In this document: piece by piece, positions 8,660 to 43,074 of the stretch
Layout: every line of letters starts with the position of its first letter
How positions within the stretch are numbered: the first letter of the stretch is position 1
NCBI RefSeq assembly: GCF_020523925.1
Contig: NZ_JAJAPW010000002.1
Coordinates: 310,001 to 374,000 of the forward strand
Source of the DNA: Neotamlana laminarinivorans
Lineage (GTDB): Bacteria > Bacteroidota > Bacteroidia > Flavobacteriales > Flavobacteriaceae
DNA length: 64,000 nt
Direction of reading: 5' to 3'
Program-made: the position numbers and the translations under genes
Notes under the pieces: model-generated
The model's input: the letters and a program-made list of their open reading frames with translations, nothing else
What the model was told of the DNA's origin: nothing
Databases searched by the model: none

Positions 8660-10088
8660 TTTAAAAACATATAAAGGCTTTTGTCTAAGTTGCTTTATTG
8701 CAATTGGCATGTTTTCGTGTGTGCCAACTAAAAATATTAGAGAGGTAAATAAAAGCACTCCAAAACAGTATAAAAATGCCGCAAACGATACTACAAATAC
8801 AGCTAAAATACCTTGGAAACATTTTTTTAAAGATCCGTATTTAATTGCTTTAATAGATACTGCCTTAACCAATAACCAAGAGCTAAATATTATGCTTCAA
8901 AAAATTGGAATAGCACAAAACAACATTAAAGCTAAAAAAGGTGAATATTTACCTTTTGTAAACTTTTTTGCCGCTGCAGATTTAGACAAAGTTGGGGAAT
9001 ACACCAGAGATGGTGCTGTTGAGCAAAACTTAAACATTCGTGAAGATGAAGCATTTCCAGAACCTTTAACCAATTACACAATAGGCTTATCGGCCTCTTG
9101 GGAGTTAGACATTTGGAAAAAACTTAGAAACGAAAAAAAAGCTGCTGTTCTAGAATATTTAGCTTCAGTTGAAGGTAAAAATTTTATGGTTACCCAACTA
9201 ATTTCAGAAATTGCCAGTGCATATTATGAACTCATGGCGCTTGATAATCAACTTACCATTATCGAGCAAAATTTAAATATTCAGCAAAATGCTTTAAAAA
9301 TGGTTAAGCTACAAAAACAAGCTGCACGAACAACACAGCTTGCCGTAAGTCGTTTTGAAGCCGATGTTTATAAAAACCAAAGTAATAAGTATAATATTCA
9401 GCAGGAAATAATAGAAACCGAAAACTTAATTAATTACCTAGTCGGTCGTTATCCGCAACCCGTAACACGAGGTTCAGATACATTTTTAGAACAACAAATA
9501 AACCCTGTTTTAACTGGTATTCCTTCGCAACTGCTAACGCAACGTCCAGATATAAAACAAGCTGAGTTAGAGTTAGAAGCTTCTAAACTTAATGTAAAAA
9601 TTGCTCGAGCTAATTTTTATCCGTCGGTTGGTATAAGCGCTGGTGTGGGCTTTGAAGCATTCAAACCTAAGTTTTTAACACACACACCAGAATCTTTAGC
9701 CTATTCGTTGGTAGGCGATATGGTTGCTCCGTTAATAAACCGAAATGCTATAAAAGCAGCATATAGCACAGCTAATAATAAGCAATTAGAAACCATTTTT
9801 GATTATGAAAAAACCATTTTAAATGCGTTTATAGAAGTGTCTAATCACTTATCTAAAGTTGAAAATCTAAAGGAAAGTTATCGATTAAAAGAAAACCAGG
9901 TAAATAGTTTAACCGAAGCCATCGATCTTTCTATCCGCTTGTTTAAATCGGCAAGAGCAGAATATACAGAGGTATTGCTAACACAACGTGAAGCACTAGA
10001 TTCTAAAATGGAAATTATAGAAACAAAAAAAGACCAATTAATAGCAAATATCCAATTATATCAATCTTTGGGTGGAGGATGGAATTAA
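8652..10088 (+). CDS. RND efflux outer-membrane factor, TolC/NodT family lipoprotein
   Basis: This is the outer-membrane channel partner of the upstream adaptor and pump. The 478-aa protein has a lipobox at Cys23 (GMFSCVP). It has the internal duplication typical of the family, with two long alpha-helical OEP repeats at about 60-270 and 285-475 and conserved turns such as LLTQRPDIKQAE and FYPSVGISAGVG. Its ATG lies inside the end of the pump gene. A strong terminator follows, so the operon is exactly three genes. Confidence 0.95.
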   Translation: MINLKTYKGFCLSCFIAIGMFSCVPTKNIREVNKSTPKQYKNAANDTTNTAKIPWKHFFKDPYLIALIDTALTNNQELNIMLQKIGIAQNNIKAKKGEYLPFVNFFAAADLDKVGEYTRDGAVEQNLNIREDEAFPEPLTNYTIGLSASWELDIWKKLRNEKKAAVLEYLASVEGKNFMVTQLISEIASAYYELMALDNQLTIIEQNLNIQQNALKMVKLQKQAARTTQLAVSRFEADVYKNQSNKYNIQQEIIETENLINYLVGRYPQPVTRGSDTFLEQQINPVLTGIPSQLLTQRPDIKQAELELEASKLNVKIARANFYPSVGISAGVGFEAFKPKFLTHTPESLAYSLVGDMVAPLINRNAIKAAYSTANNKQLETIFDYEKTILNAFIEVSNHLSKVENLKESYRLKENQVNSLTEAIDLSIRLFKSARAEYTEVLLTQREALDSKMEIIETKKDQLIANIQLYQSLGGGWN

Positions 10089-27847: not shown

Positions 27848-30262
27848 CTATTTTTCGATGCTGTAATAACAGTTTCTAACCACAGGAATACCGGTTTTTG
27901 TAATACCTTCTAAAGTTATCTGCACTTCTGTTTCTACTGCGCTATTAAAATAATTTAATTTTACCTCGCCATTATTTTCAGGATGAACATAAGGGTTCCA
28001 ATACAAAGTGTTCCTAACAGCTTCTGTGCTATTTTGTTGATTATTTTCCAAAGGATTAGACGTGTAAAATTCTCTGGCTTTATAAAAACCATTTACTTCA
28101 TCCTTTACTGTATGATAAATCGTTTTTTCTCGATTTAAAGCACCTTCTTTTGTATAAATTAAAAGCACACCATTACCTCCATTTGCTCCTAAAATTGATG
28201 CACTTGCGCCGTTTAAAATTTCTATTTTTTCTACATCATTTGGTTGTATAAAGGCAACCTCTTCCTGTTGCCAAGGTATACCATCTACTATTATTTGTGC
28301 TGGCCCATTATATCTGGTAAATTTTATAGTTGAACCCGAAACTTGCACGCCAGGAATAGTAACTTGAATAAGTTGGTGTATGGTTGAAAACGAGCGTTTT
28401 TCATCTTCAAAAGTAAAAGTTCTATCTGGGGTTCCGTAAATACTTTGTGAAAGTTCTGCTTTTTTCTTTGCTATAATTTCAACCTCATCTAAAACATTTT
28501 CTGGCATTACACCAAACGCCATGTGTTTTTTTAAAATATTATTTTTTAGTGTTGTATTCTTAATGGTATCGACTGTAAAAACTTGTGGATTTAAGTTAAC
28601 CTCAAGTGGAACTCTATTAAATTTATCTAATAGTAATTGGCCTTTCCCTTTGCCCTTTTCGTTTTTAGAACTTAATACAAACTTTGTTTTACCATAAAAC
28701 ATGAGGTCTTTAAACCTAAACATTCCTAAAGCATCTGTTTCTGTGCTTAACATCTCAAGTTTACCATTGTTAAATAAAGCTAAGGTTACTATATTATTTG
28801 CTTTTACTTTTGTACCAAGTATTTGCTTAACACGACCGCTAAATGTAATGCCTTTTTCGGTTAAAAAAGGGGCTTTTATAGGCTTAGGTTCTGGTAAGTT
28901 TTTCCATAAATAGTTTCTCCAACCTTGTGTTAATAGTAATAAATCTAAATCTTGAAATCGTCGCAGATTTTTTTCATCGAAATAATACCCAGGATTATGC
29001 ACTTTTCCTTTAATATCGAACTCTATTAAAAAAAACGAAGCAATATTGGATTGATAGTTTTTAGCATCTTCGCCGTTTTTATCAATACAACTTACAGAAT
29101 AACTTGCTAAAGCTACTTCTCCTGCCTTGTTTTTTGACGATACTTTTAAAGTTACCTTTTCGTTAGGTTGATAACTACTTTTATTAGTTGAAATAACAAC
29201 ATTTAAATCTTTACTTTTTTCTAAATAAATTAATCGTTCGCTTTGTGGGCGGTTGTTGGCATCAATTAAAGTTACTTGGTTTATGCCTTCAGGAAGCGTG
29301 TTATTAGGTATTTCTAAATAAGTTGTAGGATTTACAATAACTTGTGAAATATTAAAGTAAGTAACCCCTTTAAATTTAAATATAATTTGAAATGGTGCTT
29401 TATTTTGACTGGCTAAAGTATTTGCATTGGTTTTAATAATGAGCATGTTTTTACCACGTACTTTTCTAAAACTTAAAGCATAACCTTGTTTTAAACTACC
29501 AGTAAGTTGTTGTTTAATATCTGTATTTAAAATTTTAGCATAATATGTTTCACCTGGCTGTGGGTTTAACATAAACTTTCCCATACCATCATGAAGTGTA
29601 CCAAAAAAAGTAACAAGCGAATCGTTTGAAGCTTTATAAATTTCACCTTTTAATTGTATTGGAAAACCTTTGCTATTTGTAGCTTTAAAGGCAACTACAT
29701 TATTTACATTTGTAATTAACGAACCACCTTCTGGAAAAAACTGAATATTTACTTTTTTTAAAGTATTGTATTTTAAATTTTCTTCGTTTGAAGCTTTAGA
29801 AACGTTTAATACTTCAGAATTTGCCTGTTGGAAAACATTTAAAATCTCAATGTCTTTTTTAAAAACAAAATGATCATCGAAATTTCTATTCCAATTCGTG
29901 TAAGCTCTTAATTGATAAATCCCTGGTTTTTTAAACCCTAAAGAATCGTTTAAAATAAAATCTCCATGACCTAATCCATTTTCTAAAATGGTTTTATTTT
30001 GAGCCACAACTTCGGCATCAGGAGAAACTAACTCAACGTACAATAGTTGGCTTTTACTAAAAAGAAGATTACTATAAGGATAAACAGAATAAGCCTTATA
30101 CCAAAGTGACTCGCCAAACATATACTTTGTACGATCGGTGTGCAAGTATACACCTTCAATTTCTGGAACTTTTTTATTGTTTTGAGCATTTAAAATAAAC
30201 AGATTTAAAACAATAAAATATAATAGAAATAACCCTTTCGAGATTTTAATTAACGGTATCAT
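27848..30262 (-). CDS. Secreted protein with MG2-like N terminus and C-terminal TonB plug domain
   Basis: The 804-aa protein has a signal peptide (about 1-26), then a macroglobulin MG2-like module (VYLHTDRTKYMFGESLWYKA), several Ig-like beta modules, a carboxypeptidase-regulatory-like segment near 465-540 and, at about 620-720, a TonB receptor plug (IPGVQVSGST, IIVDGIPW, IEILNGASASILGANGGNGV). No beta-barrel follows; the chain ends about 85 residues after the plug. It is thus not a transporter itself and may be a periplasmic or surface binding protein of a TonB-type complex. It is monocistronic. Function is unknown. Confidence 0.8.
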   Translation of the reverse strand: MIPLIKISKGLFLLYFIVLNLFILNAQNNKKVPEIEGVYLHTDRTKYMFGESLWYKAYSVYPYSNLLFSKSQLLYVELVSPDAEVVAQNKTILENGLGHGDFILNDSLGFKKPGIYQLRAYTNWNRNFDDHFVFKKDIEILNVFQQANSEVLNVSKASNEENLKYNTLKKVNIQFFPEGGSLITNVNNVVAFKATNSKGFPIQLKGEIYKASNDSLVTFFGTLHDGMGKFMLNPQPGETYYAKILNTDIKQQLTGSLKQGYALSFRKVRGKNMLIIKTNANTLASQNKAPFQIIFKFKGVTYFNISQVIVNPTTYLEIPNNTLPEGINQVTLIDANNRPQSERLIYLEKSKDLNVVISTNKSSYQPNEKVTLKVSSKNKAGEVALASYSVSCIDKNGEDAKNYQSNIASFFLIEFDIKGKVHNPGYYFDEKNLRRFQDLDLLLLTQGWRNYLWKNLPEPKPIKAPFLTEKGITFSGRVKQILGTKVKANNIVTLALFNNGKLEMLSTETDALGMFRFKDLMFYGKTKFVLSSKNEKGKGKGQLLLDKFNRVPLEVNLNPQVFTVDTIKNTTLKNNILKKHMAFGVMPENVLDEVEIIAKKKAELSQSIYGTPDRTFTFEDEKRSFSTIHQLIQVTIPGVQVSGSTIKFTRYNGPAQIIVDGIPWQQEEVAFIQPNDVEKIEILNGASASILGANGGNGVLLIYTKEGALNREKTIYHTVKDEVNGFYKAREFYTSNPLENNQQNSTEAVRNTLYWNPYVHPENNGEVKLNYFNSAVETEVQITLEGITKTGIPVVRNCYYSIEK

Positions 30263-39567: not shown

Positions 39568-39593
39568 TTAAACTACCTCATAACAAGAATAAT

Positions 39594-39632
39594 AAAAAAA
39601 TCAGAAATGAATCTTCATTTCTGATTTTTTTA
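39594..39632 (+). terminator. Intrinsic terminator of the glycogen/GH31 cluster
   Basis: AAATCAGAAATGAA (39598-39611) and TTCATTTCTGATTT (39614-39627) are perfectly complementary, and a T tract follows. Confidence 0.9.
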
Positions 39633-39802
39633 TTATTTAACTTTTAATATTGAATACCTTTTCAACAATTTGAAAACACTTTTTTTAATTGAAAAAAACC
39701 TTATTTTTCTTACATTTTTTTTTCACTGAAAACAGGGTAGTATAATTTATTTAGTCTTTATAGTTTAGCGACGTTTTACTCAAAATAAATTCTTAAAAAT
39801 TT

Positions 39803-40438
39803 ATGAATATCGCTAATAAAGAACAACTTAAAAAAGCAATGATTTTTTTTAATAACGAAGATTTTGAAAATTACTATGACCTAAAAATTTCAATTTTAAA
39901 ATTAATTCAATGCAATTTTGAAGGTGACGCTAAAGATTATTACATAAACTTAATAAATAAAGTAGATGCTTCTTTTAATGATCGCAATAAAGAACTCATA
40001 TCTGGTATTAATAACATGCTTGAAAATCTTCCTCACAAGAATTCTAACAATGACTTTCAATTAATTAGTTTTTGTTTTATTGCTTCAGGTGATTATTCTA
40101 TTCGTATACGTGCTTATAAAAATGTTAATGAAAACAATCACGAACAAGGTTTAAACGCTATAGGATATGGAGATTTAGGCAATTATTACCTAGATGATTT
40201 AACTAAAATATACAATGAATGCTATTATAATAGTTTTTCTGAAAATTATGAAGATGATTTAGAAGATATTTTCATTTTAATTAAACATAAAAAAATGACT
40301 CAAGTTAAATACTTGATAAAAGAATGTGTTTCTAAATTTAATTTATCTCAATTAAATATAACATACCCCTTATACACGTATCTAGATTATGGAAATTTTC
40401 CAGCTGGTTCTGGTTTTTTAATTAGTAAAATAAATTAA
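39803..40438 (+). CDS. Uncharacterised cytoplasmic protein, 211 aa
   Basis: I do not recognise a family. The protein has no signal peptide or membrane segment. It is acidic, rich in Asn, Asp, Tyr and Ile, and probably mostly alpha-helical. One central stretch (DFQLISFCFIASGDYSIRIRAYKN) looks like beta strands. It follows the GH31 terminator by 170 nt and precedes two exported proteins, with no sign of coupling. Codon use looks a little more AT-rich than its neighbours. Confidence 0.6.
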   Translation: MNIANKEQLKKAMIFFNNEDFENYYDLKISILKLIQCNFEGDAKDYYINLINKVDASFNDRNKELISGINNMLENLPHKNSNNDFQLISFCFIASGDYSIRIRAYKNVNENNHEQGLNAIGYGDLGNYYLDDLTKIYNECYYNSFSENYEDDLEDIFILIKHKKMTQVKYLIKECVSKFNLSQLNITYPLYTYLDYGNFPAGSGFLISKIN

Positions 40439-40501
40439 ATAATCTCTCAACCAAATCCATTCAGAAATTAACCTTTTTAATAATATAAACCCCTTAAAGT
40501 T

Positions 40502-41557
40502 ATGTACAAAATTATTACTACCTCACTAGTACTATTATTTACAACTATTTTTTATGCACAAGAAAAACCAACAGCCGAAAACACAGGTTACACTGGTACT
40601 CTAACAAATTATACTGGTTCAACAACAATTCAAACAGATAATACTGTTATTGAAAACAAATTAATATCCGGAACTATTCGCATTTATGCAAATAATGTTA
40701 CTATTAGAAATTGTAAAATTACTACAGGTGGCTTTTATGGTATAGACATTAAAGAAGGTGAAAACATTCTTATAGAAGATTGTGAAATTGAAGGTATGCA
40801 AAGTGCCGCAATACTTGGTAGAAACTTTACTGCCAGACGATGCAATATTTGGAATAGCGGTGCAGACGGTATTAAACCATATAGTAACTTTCTTATTGAA
40901 TCCTGTTATTTTCACCATTTAGGATATGTAGAAGATGCTCATGCCGATGGTATACAATTAGTTAGAGAAGGTGGTGGTATTATCACTGGAAATAACTTTG
41001 ACATGGGACCTGCTAGCGGTTATAAAAACAGCCAATGCATTATTATTCAATCTAACGATGCAGCTGTTGATGATATTGTAATTGATGGAAACTGGATTAA
41101 TGGTGGTGGCTATAGCGTTCAAATAAGAGAACGTAATTACGGCCCACCAACCAATATTTCTATTACAAACAATTTGTTTGGTAGAGATGCTCAATTTGGT
41201 ACTCATATTATAGATGGAGATAACTCAGTTACCAATAACGTTTTTAACTGTAATAGATATGAAGATACTAACGAATTAGTAGAAGGTACAACTTGCGATG
41301 AAACATTAAGTACCAACAACATAGAACTCTCTAATAATATTATAAGTTACCCTAACCCGATTACAAACGAACTTTACGTTTTAGAAAATCAAGGCGCTAA
41401 TTATGAATTGTATAGCAATACAGGAAAATTAATAATGAAAAACACTATTACAAGTAATAACTTTAACGTAAAAACCAATAATCTTACTTCTGGAATTTAT
41501 GTTTTGAAAATTTTTACAAAAGAAGGTGTAACTACAAAAAAAATAATTAAAAATTAA
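40502..41557 (+). CDS. T9SS-secreted right-handed beta-helix protein
   Basis: The 351-aa protein has a signal peptide (about 1-19, YKIITTSLVLLFTTIFYAQ). A parallel beta-helix of about 230 residues follows with recurring turns (NVTIRNCKI, ENILIEDCEI, FTARRCNIW, FLIESCYFHHLG). At the C terminus is a type A T9SS sorting domain (SYPNPITNELYV to GVTTKKIIKN). Beta-helix proteins of this type are often polysaccharide lyases or epimerases acting outside the cell; the substrate is not evident. The next gene starts 31 nt later, and both may act on the same extracellular glycan. Confidence 0.85.
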   Translation: MYKIITTSLVLLFTTIFYAQEKPTAENTGYTGTLTNYTGSTTIQTDNTVIENKLISGTIRIYANNVTIRNCKITTGGFYGIDIKEGENILIEDCEIEGMQSAAILGRNFTARRCNIWNSGADGIKPYSNFLIESCYFHHLGYVEDAHADGIQLVREGGGIITGNNFDMGPASGYKNSQCIIIQSNDAAVDDIVIDGNWINGGGYSVQIRERNYGPPTNISITNNLFGRDAQFGTHIIDGDNSVTNNVFNCNRYEDTNELVEGTTCDETLSTNNIELSNNIISYPNPITNELYVLENQGANYELYSNTGKLIMKNTITSNNFNVKTNNLTSGIYVLKIFTKEGVTTKKIIKN

Positions 41558-41588
41558 AATCCATTTAAAAGTATTTAATCCCTAAATC

Positions 41589-42986
41589 ATGATTAACAAA
41601 TTTAACCTATTTAAAAATTATTCTCTCATAATTTTTGCTTTTTTAACTATAACTATTTACAACTGTACCCCTGAAAATAACACAGATCCTGAGGAGACAG
41701 AAGAAGAAATTTCTGAAGAAGAAGAAAATACAGAGGAAGATCCTGAATCATCTGAGGGCACTAGCCAAAGTAGTATTTCTTATTATGATGATCTAATAAC
41801 TTTTTATTTTTTAGATTCTTATACTGTAGGACAATATGCAAACGGAGATTATTGGGTTTACAATGAAGGATATGATGTTACAATTACACAAATAACGCCT
41901 GTATCTCAAAATGTAAGCGGGCGCATAATTAATGGTACAATGATTAACCCTGAAAACAGTGAAAATCAAGGTTATGATAGTAACGCTAGAGATATGGGTT
42001 ATGAAGACTTTCTAAATGTTGACCCTGGTAACACAAACTCAAACTTAACAGTACCTGCAGGAACATCTATCATCAAATCAATCTCTACAGAATCTGCAGA
42101 TGGAAGACCTATTATTAGTGATGCTGCTATACTTACTGTAGTTGCCGAAATTCCTTTAGAAAACTCTTTTAGACCTCCATATACAGGTTCAAACAAAACA
42201 GCGATAGCAACAACTACAGATTTAAATTTTGATGTTTTAGGAACTCATCCAAGATTAACAGATACATACGATATTGGAGAAGTTACTCATTACTATGATA
42301 GAGTTTGGTTAGAGCACAATACAGCATGGACATCCAGAGATATTCATCCTGCCAACCATATGCCTCCATATGGAAGAGATTTAGCTAATAAATCTGCCAT
42401 CGGTTTAATTCTTTTACAATTAGATTATACTAATGAAGAAAAAACACAACTTTTAATAAACTTAGTCCAATATGGAATTGATATTTATGGTTTAGCTAAA
42501 AACGGAGCACAATGGAACAATAGTGGTGGACATAATTTAGGTAGAAAAATGCCTCTTTTATTAGCCGGAAAAGTGTTAGAAAATGATGATATTTTAGCTT
42601 ATGGAGACAAAGAACAACACTTTATTTTTCAAGACGATCAACAACATTTTTATGTTAGCCAAACGGAAGTAGATATTACTAATAGTGATGCTTGGAGACC
42701 CGATGACAGAGCAACACTTACTCCTTACACTACAGACGATATAGGTTTAGCAGAATGGGGAATACATCATGCTGATGAGCCTGAAGAAGATAACGCTAAT
42801 TGGGGAGCAACTTACCGCAAAATTTGTGGTTATGCTCAAACTTCTCATATTTTAGCCGCAAGACTTATGGATATAGAAGACGACTGGAATTGGTCTCCTG
42901 TTTTTGACTATACAGATCGTTTTTATGAATTACAAGTTGATGAATTTGATCCTTTTATATCAACTCTTTATGAAGCTTATAGATAA
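41589..42986 (+). CDS. Uncharacterised surface lipoprotein with an acidic linker
   Basis: The 465-aa protein has a lipobox at Cys26 (ITIYNCTP), then a strongly acidic Glu/Asp linker (about residues 28-60) that would space it from the membrane. An all-beta stretch (about 70-200) is followed by a helical part with conserved-looking HPANHMPPYGRDLANKSAIG, NSGGHNLGRKMPLLLAG and DDIGLAEWGIHH. The His- and Trp-rich helical part recalls toroidal carbohydrate-active domains, but I cannot assign a family. It is paired with the beta-helix protein upstream. Confidence 0.7.
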   Translation: MINKFNLFKNYSLIIFAFLTITIYNCTPENNTDPEETEEEISEEEENTEEDPESSEGTSQSSISYYDDLITFYFLDSYTVGQYANGDYWVYNEGYDVTITQITPVSQNVSGRIINGTMINPENSENQGYDSNARDMGYEDFLNVDPGNTNSNLTVPAGTSIIKSISTESADGRPIISDAAILTVVAEIPLENSFRPPYTGSNKTAIATTTDLNFDVLGTHPRLTDTYDIGEVTHYYDRVWLEHNTAWTSRDIHPANHMPPYGRDLANKSAIGLILLQLDYTNEEKTQLLINLVQYGIDIYGLAKNGAQWNNSGGHNLGRKMPLLLAGKVLENDDILAYGDKEQHFIFQDDQQHFYVSQTEVDITNSDAWRPDDRATLTPYTTDDIGLAEWGIHHADEPEEDNANWGATYRKICGYAQTSHILAARLMDIEDDWNWSPVFDYTDRFYELQVDEFDPFISTLYEAYR

Positions 42987-43007
42987 AAAATAAAATTAAA
43001 GAAACAA

Positions 43008-43042
43008 AAAAACCCTTTTTTAAGATTAAAAAAGGGGTTTTT
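43008..43042. terminator. Bidirectional terminator
   Basis: AAACCCTTTTTTAA pairs with TTAAAAAAGGGGTTT across a 2-nt centre, with one bulged G. It serves the lipoprotein gene on the plus strand and the antiporter gene on the minus strand. Confidence 0.8.
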
Positions 43043-43074
43043 ATTTATACATACCTTAAATTTATTTCTAATTT

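Follow-up and report, generated by a model that had tools for sequence, protein, structure and literature searches.

A flavobacterial three-gene cassette encodes a lipoprotein of an uncharacterised family common to phages and cells, probably a polysaccharide depolymerase

The window analysed here, a stretch of 64,000 nucleotides from Neotamlana laminarinivorans (contig NZ_JAJAPW010000002.1), contains three consecutive open reading frames of 211, 351 and 465 aa at 39803-42986, separated by intergenic gaps of 63 and 31 nt (Table 1). The initial annotation of this DNA, made from the letters alone, had given the same three genes and the same 31-nt spacing. Upstream lies a run of glycogen/starch genes with a GH31 gene as the last one, and downstream a Na/H exchanger gene on the opposite strand. 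SusC and SusD were absent among the 10 neighbouring proteins scanned (27848-49462, E ≤1e-10, one of the 10 without any family), which agrees with the earlier statement that no SusCD pair is present. A protein of about 800 aa adjoining lepA (27848-30262, minus strand) matched no Pfam family at E ≤1e-10.

The trio is bordered by two hairpins, with folding energies of -16.5 kcal/mol (z -6.05) at 39595-39640 and -13.7 kcal/mol (z -3.44) at 43002-43048. None of the seven terminator-like matches fell into either gap inside the trio, one was located within the lipoprotein gene on the minus strand, and both gaps showed no folding. A hairpin on each side and none between the genes fits a single three-gene transcript, and the three genes are probably co-transcribed. 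A Bacteroidota promoter consensus gave 16 matches versus 27 by chance, none of them in the trio, and sigma-70-like sites were at chance level (21 versus 22 expected).

Table 1. Features of the three-gene cassette (window coordinates; a dot marks features assigned to neither strand).
Feature	Position	Strand	Basis
Terminator-like hairpin, usable in both directions, between upstream GH31 gene and trio	39590..39635	.	20 pairs
Entire cassette, with DNA similarity to L013 (strain Hp32, other site)	39719..42995	+	blastn, three pieces
Sequence CACTGAAAACAGGGTA, operator- or promoter-like	39724..39739	+	63 nt before first ATG
211-aa protein, without signal peptide (by eye) and without family	39803..40438	+	Pfam, NCBIfam and PHROGs scans
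351-aa exported beta-helix protein	40502..41557	+	Beta_helix, residues 43-167
T9SS type A sorting domain of beta-helix protein, residues 283-351	41348..41554	+	TIGR04183, E 2.6e-13
465-aa lipoprotein, phrog_34846-like domain family	41589..42986	+	ORF call, PHROGs
Lipoprotein signal ending at Cys26	41589..41666	+	By eye; Cys kept in L013-L015
Acidic linker, mostly low model confidence	41667..41759	+	Composition and model
Beta domain, residues 58-190	41760..42158	+	pLDDT 83-98 in ten-residue blocks
Helical C-domain, residues 192-465, with invariant Arg195, Asp298 and Tyr409	42162..42983	+	Model, conservation
Terminator-like hairpin, usable in both directions, 3' end of trio	43013..43036	.	Terminator scan

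The product of the second gene is a member of the beta-helix family PF13229 (E 7e-14, 52.2 bits versus a cut-off of 25.9), and its C-terminus identifies it as T9SS type A cargo by TIGR04183 (49.7 bits versus a cut-off of 23), with a further match to Pfam Por_Secre_tail (E 8.3e-11). Its earlier description as a T9SS beta-helix protein is therefore borne out by two families above their cut-offs. It also weakly matches the tail spike profile phrog_2234 (PHROGs, E 2.2e-5). Relatives were found neither in phages nor in the viral contigs searched, and none in 148 related genomes besides its own (E ≤1e-8). Among seven lipoprotein-bearing genomes searched, two contained a relative, strain Hp32 and the fragmentary Polyangia MAG of locus L016 (45% over 131 residues, on a contig other than that of the lipoprotein), and five contained none.

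The third gene encodes a lipoprotein with 16 Asp/Glu and not a single Lys/Arg at residues 27-60. Together with the signal ending at Cys26, assigned by eye, this composition supports its naming as an acidic-linker lipoprotein, and with a T9SS tail on one protein and a lipoprotein signal on the other, the pair carries sorting signals that fit the export suggested earlier. According to PMC5080379, the LES motif of surface lipoproteins is SDDFE-like at +2 to +6 after the cysteine; here these positions read TPENN, and by eye the acidic run starts mainly from +8. The lipoprotein matched no Pfam family at E ≤1, one NCBIfam model with a score well short of the cut-off (E 0.056, 13.2 bits versus 30) and no PDB sequence at E ≤10, and a profile search against the PDB returned four weak unrelated matches only. 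Residues 45-444 matched positions 224-638 of phrog_34846 in PHROGs v4 (E 6.3e-32), which places the protein in this family, annotated there as "unknown function". The initial annotation knew no family for the lipoprotein, which still holds for Pfam and NCBIfam, but its term "orphan" has to be given up, because the domain belongs to a wide family. The phrog_34846 profile has the length of a 706-aa protein of phage Redno2 with a minor-tail N-terminus, whereas the protein encoded in the window is bacterial and a free lipoprotein. When 21 family members were scanned with Pfam at E ≤1, five single weak matches emerged, one of them to H_lectin at 0.08, and no CAZyme or known lyase family was matched. 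Our literature search, with most subscription papers outside its reach, found no paper on the family.

By tblastn, the lipoprotein matched 22 phage records, 20 from Mycobacterium and two from Microcystis phages. In IMG/VR, 95 candidate stretches yielded 14 relatives, with near-duplicates among them, and a scan with the domain of the viral contig L037 added one further distant viral contig (L060). Among 99 related genomes, three had matches at E ≤0.001: the own genome, G060 with strong matches, and G047, which we discounted as its match (E 4.2e-4, residues 6-84) spans little beyond signal and acidic linker. A phylum-wide sample gave one of 296 genomes and the own family one of 397, the own genome both times. 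The phyla of the L017 and L018 genomes gave 11 of 377 and 15 of 387, each including the centre genome, in searches with a wider alignment, which makes these rates not strictly comparable with the former two; up to four matches per genome occurred in the L018-phylum search. By these counts the family is thinly spread in bacterial genomes. In the Polyangia MAG, a second, divergent copy of the domain follows shortly after the first (L016 3406-4065, profile E 1.7e-4); it ends at the contig end and by eye resembles the viral L038/L039 type.

In mycobacteriophage Redno2, gp43 combines a minor-tail N-terminus (phrog_8174) and a Laminin_G_3 domain with the domain of the lipoprotein family. Two of the 20 mycobacteriophage records are Redno2, and the other 18 carry the domain at ≥99% identity. 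The Redno2 record labels gp43, located between tail and lysis genes, as "lysin A", and this could point to an enzyme for cell-wall glycan (peptidoglycan or arabinogalactan) that phages would use and that bacteria would turn against their neighbours; a peptidoglycan amidase gene adjoining member L110 and a D-arabinanase placed first, tied, in the weak fold list of the whole lipoprotein model (Z 4.8) point the same way. We regard such a cell-wall enzyme as improbable, given that Redno2 already has the GH25 protein gp45 and the cutinase-like gp47 (E 6.8e-5, just under the cut-off), that gp43 starts with a minor-tail domain, and that a member standing among glycosyltransferase genes (L107) fits this role poorly. 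The label "lysin A" itself was rejected, with GH25 sitting on gp45, which the record notes as "Lysin B", and a minor-tail N-terminus on gp43; the record labels of both genes look wrong (L023 9266-13195). The label "carbohydrate esterase" of the Microcystis phage protein was likewise not adopted, with no Pfam family at E ≤0.01 and no paper found that names this phage together with Microcystis. Virion proteins of phage Omega have been listed by mass spectrometry in a paper on cluster J (PMC3706429); the portion of it available to us does not name Redno2, and none of the matching phage records is named Omega.

An AlphaFold model of the whole lipoprotein, based on 21 sequences, reached a pLDDT of 84.7 and a pTM of 0.84, with low confidence in signal and acidic linker. 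It shows beta structure over residues 58-185 and is mainly helical over residues 229-464, and the C-domain modelled alone gave a pLDDT of 87.2. BFVD gave two viral proteins without names (706 and 1366 residues), both at E <1e-24. Foldseek against the PDB found nothing at E ≤0.001 for the whole model or the C-domain (E ≥0.29 overall). For the C-domain (E ≥0.41, Z ≤5.8), we observed weak similarity to (alpha/alpha)-toroid folds: all of the top five Foldseek rows were AlgL or Smlt1473 lyases with weak scores, and the best VIA match was GH116, whose Z of 5.8 over 185-188 residues at 4.6-4.8 A lies under the tool's own Z 8 caution and may stem from nothing more than a common arrangement. Glycan hydrolases, lyases or phosphorylases made up 38 of the 50 VIA rows by our own count; with the whole model, glycan enzymes took 24 of 50 rows and complement proteins 13. 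The fold search proposed in the initial annotation leans to glycan enzymes in its C-domain lists, with all PDB matches weak.

A profile of 21 members was extended to 64 distinct sequences, after dropping those under 330 residues, duplicates and contained ones. Gly81, Arg195, Pro196, Asp298 and Tyr409 are invariant in 64/64 and Tyr261 is present in 63/64, and we read the invariant Arg, Asp and Tyr as a putative active site. A polysaccharide lyase requires a Tyr or His as base/acid plus a charge neutraliser, and the kept Tyr, Arg and Asp residues could supply this chemistry. PL5-like catalysis at the GGH motif was not adopted, as its His315 falls short of 75% conservation across the 64 sequences. 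Several viral members have altered or lost His315, Arg319 and Lys320, and the Redno2 member has no Tyr at positions 380 and 441, so the active-site assignment is provisional. The loss of charged residues in some viral members would also suit a non-catalytic module that binds glycan as an adhesin or receptor-binding element, serving phage attachment in one setting and bacterial hold on algal or neighbour-cell polysaccharide in the other, and so would the weak enzyme fold matches and the combination of a tail-protein N-terminus with a lectin-like partner in Redno2. We consider such a module unlikely: an Arg, an Asp and a Tyr invariant in 64/64 across very distant members suit a catalytic site better, and helical toroid-like domains are unusual as lectins.

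Some fusions and gene neighbours of family members involve carbohydrate functions. Among 10 family proteins scanned, the domain is fused to CBM9_1 (L019), CHB_HEX_C_1 (L028, L032), Laminin_G_3 (L023), T9SS tails (L010, L012), Calx-beta (L033) and a beta-helix (L037), and no fused family was found in L031 and L022. The beta-helix of the viral L037 protein scores just under the Pfam cut-off (E 9.1e-6, 25.8 bits versus 25.9), and its lipoprotein-family domain retains Arg195, Tyr261, Asp298 and Tyr409; this single protein appears to pair the two domains that the window carries on two. In the four viral loci scanned for neighbours, we found a major head protein (L028), a head-morphogenesis protein (L036), a replication protein (L033) and nothing (L037). 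The genome G060 has two tandem members between GH3 genes and one member downstream of a GH9 gene, and other carbohydrate-related neighbours are GH2, GH94, apiosidase, rhamnosidase and Hepar_II_III. One member lies within a cluster of glycosyltransferase and polysaccharide deacetylase genes (L107, G1337:C1:332000-344000), and the L018 member has pyruvyl transferases and a Polysacc_synt protein 4-8 kb away. Eight loci were taken from the 40 matches of the L017- and L018-phylum searches before their neighbours were seen, and a carbohydrate gene was present among the scanned neighbours in four (L104-L107), a count based on proteins then picked by eye and without a background rate; L108-L111 gave no carbohydrate gene, but with one or two proteins scanned per locus. 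By eye, the Tenacibaculum and Aquimarina genes (L014, L015) seem to stand alone among housekeeping genes.

Strain Hp32 (Flavobacteriaceae), one of nine relatives recovered from 99 candidate stretches in a single pattern scan, carries the same three genes in the same order as a sharply bounded 3.3-kb block. By blastn, the cassette matched it with 80% identity at 39719-41557, 78% at 41584-41661 and 88% at 41771-42995, and comparison of the whole window with the 17-kb Hp32 locus gave no DNA match beyond the cassette (E ≤1e-5). The Hp32 block is followed by nadC, one more gene and rlmH (names by eye). In the window's genome, DNA similar to nadC and rlmH lies 130 bases apart on contig C37 and the trio occurs once, on C48; the genes that flank the Hp32 block opposite nadC show nothing more than short, weak DNA matches there. 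Being intact at differing sites in both genomes, the trio behaves as one unit. The dN/dS values against the Hp32 copies were 0.18 (211 aa), 0.11 (beta-helix) and 0.16 (lipoprotein), indicating that all three genes are under purifying selection and that the ORFs behave as genes. No paper on strain Hp32 was found.

The Hp32 block, the L037 fusion and the 31-nt spacing are the best evidence that beta-helix protein and lipoprotein may work together, and the first two, along with the beta-helix relative in the L016 genome, back the earlier impression that their genes form a unit. The initial annotation had also proposed that this unit degrades glycans. Fusions, neighbours and folds lean the same way, and we retain this as the best, if indirect, reading. 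No homologue with an assigned non-carbohydrate function turned up, the kind of relative that had been named as speaking against it.

We slightly favour the view that the lipoprotein is a cell-surface polysaccharide depolymerase, paired with the beta-helix protein on the same glycan. According to the model, an acidic tether would carry a beta domain and a helical domain, probably an (alpha/alpha)-toroid, that houses the active site. The most likely substrate would be an acidic exopolysaccharide or an algal polysaccharide. Cleavage by beta-elimination at the Tyr/Arg/Asp site is possible, at somewhat less than an even chance, and more likely than hydrolysis, which we judge unlikely. The beta-helix protein exported by the T9SS, whose gene is probably transcribed together with that of the lipoprotein, would bind or work on the same polymer, and the phage relatives would use the domain on their tail proteins to cut host surface glycan.

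Three known systems invite comparison. With PL5 and other (alpha/alpha)-toroid lyases (AlgL, Smlt1473, PL8, PL17, PL38) the helical domain has weak similarity in common, whereas the window family has no Pfam match or confident fold match and its lyase activity is only proposed. AlgL has a part in alginate-producing bacteria (PMC4444821), and in this respect the glycosyltransferase neighbours of the L107 member recall it. Like Bacteroidota polysaccharide utilisation loci, the cassette has a T9SS-sorted protein and a lipoprotein, but it lacks SusC/SusD in 10 neighbours and is a two- or three-gene unit. Phage beta-helix tailspikes resemble it in the weak phrog_2234 match of the window beta-helix and in the joining of both domains in L037; unlike them, the window encodes the beta-helix and the lipoprotein as separate proteins of a bacterium, one with a T9SS sorting domain and the other with a lipoprotein signal.

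The lipoprotein family is thus uncharacterised, common to phages and cells, and probably one of depolymerases. The wider proposal, which we advance tentatively and with not quite even confidence, is that these proteins form a new family of carbohydrate-active enzymes, as yet nameless in Pfam and NCBIfam, which moves between phage tails and the glycan systems of cells. Some Bacteroidota would carry it with a T9SS beta-helix protein as a three-gene depolymerase cassette, and in at least one virus it would be fused to a beta-helix. An unnamed phage domain would thereby gain a likely role in cutting or gripping surface glycan, and its bacterial version lends itself to expression and assay. If it proved active, the enzymes of a new family would act on polysaccharides such as exopolysaccharides, algal glycans or mycobacterial surface glycans, and phages and cells would clearly share a depolymerase.

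The 211-aa gene had been grouped with the pair as a trio, and its tie appears looser. Matches were found in two of 149 genomes, its own and G022, where the relative is 43% identical and neither the beta-helix nor the lipoprotein partner was detected near it or in genome searches. A relative without partners, preceded by a similar upstream element, implies that the first gene is only loosely tied to the pair. It also weighs against reading the pair as a weapon, toxin-like or acting by contact, to which the cytosolic 211-aa protein would confer immunity, an idea that might be prompted by a small, family-less first gene, by eye lacking a signal peptide, within a three-gene block able to move; no toxin-type domain appeared in the Pfam, NCBIfam and PHROGs scans, and we hold this reading to be very improbable.

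The upstream element, CACTGAAAACAGGGTA, is identical ahead of the Hp32 copy (L013 6016-6031) and differs in two of 16 bases ahead of the lone 211-aa relative (L041, about 9204-9219, minus strand), where it extends into an imperfect dyad. In all three genomes it precedes the 211-aa gene by about 48-63 nt (for L041, counted from a start set by eye). It is near-identical although the proteins are as little as 43% alike, and it looks like an operator. Further exact copies of its 14-base core are absent from the 864 kb searched in the own genome. We rejected CACTGAAAACAGGGTA as the mark of a regulon: at ≤2 mismatches there were 12 matches in 864 kb, one of them exact, versus five in the reversed sequence. 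Elsewhere on the same contig, a near-palindrome, CCCTGAAAACAGGG, lies at L112 7343 (G000:C48:about 7343), with two differences from the CACTGAAAACAGGGTA core.
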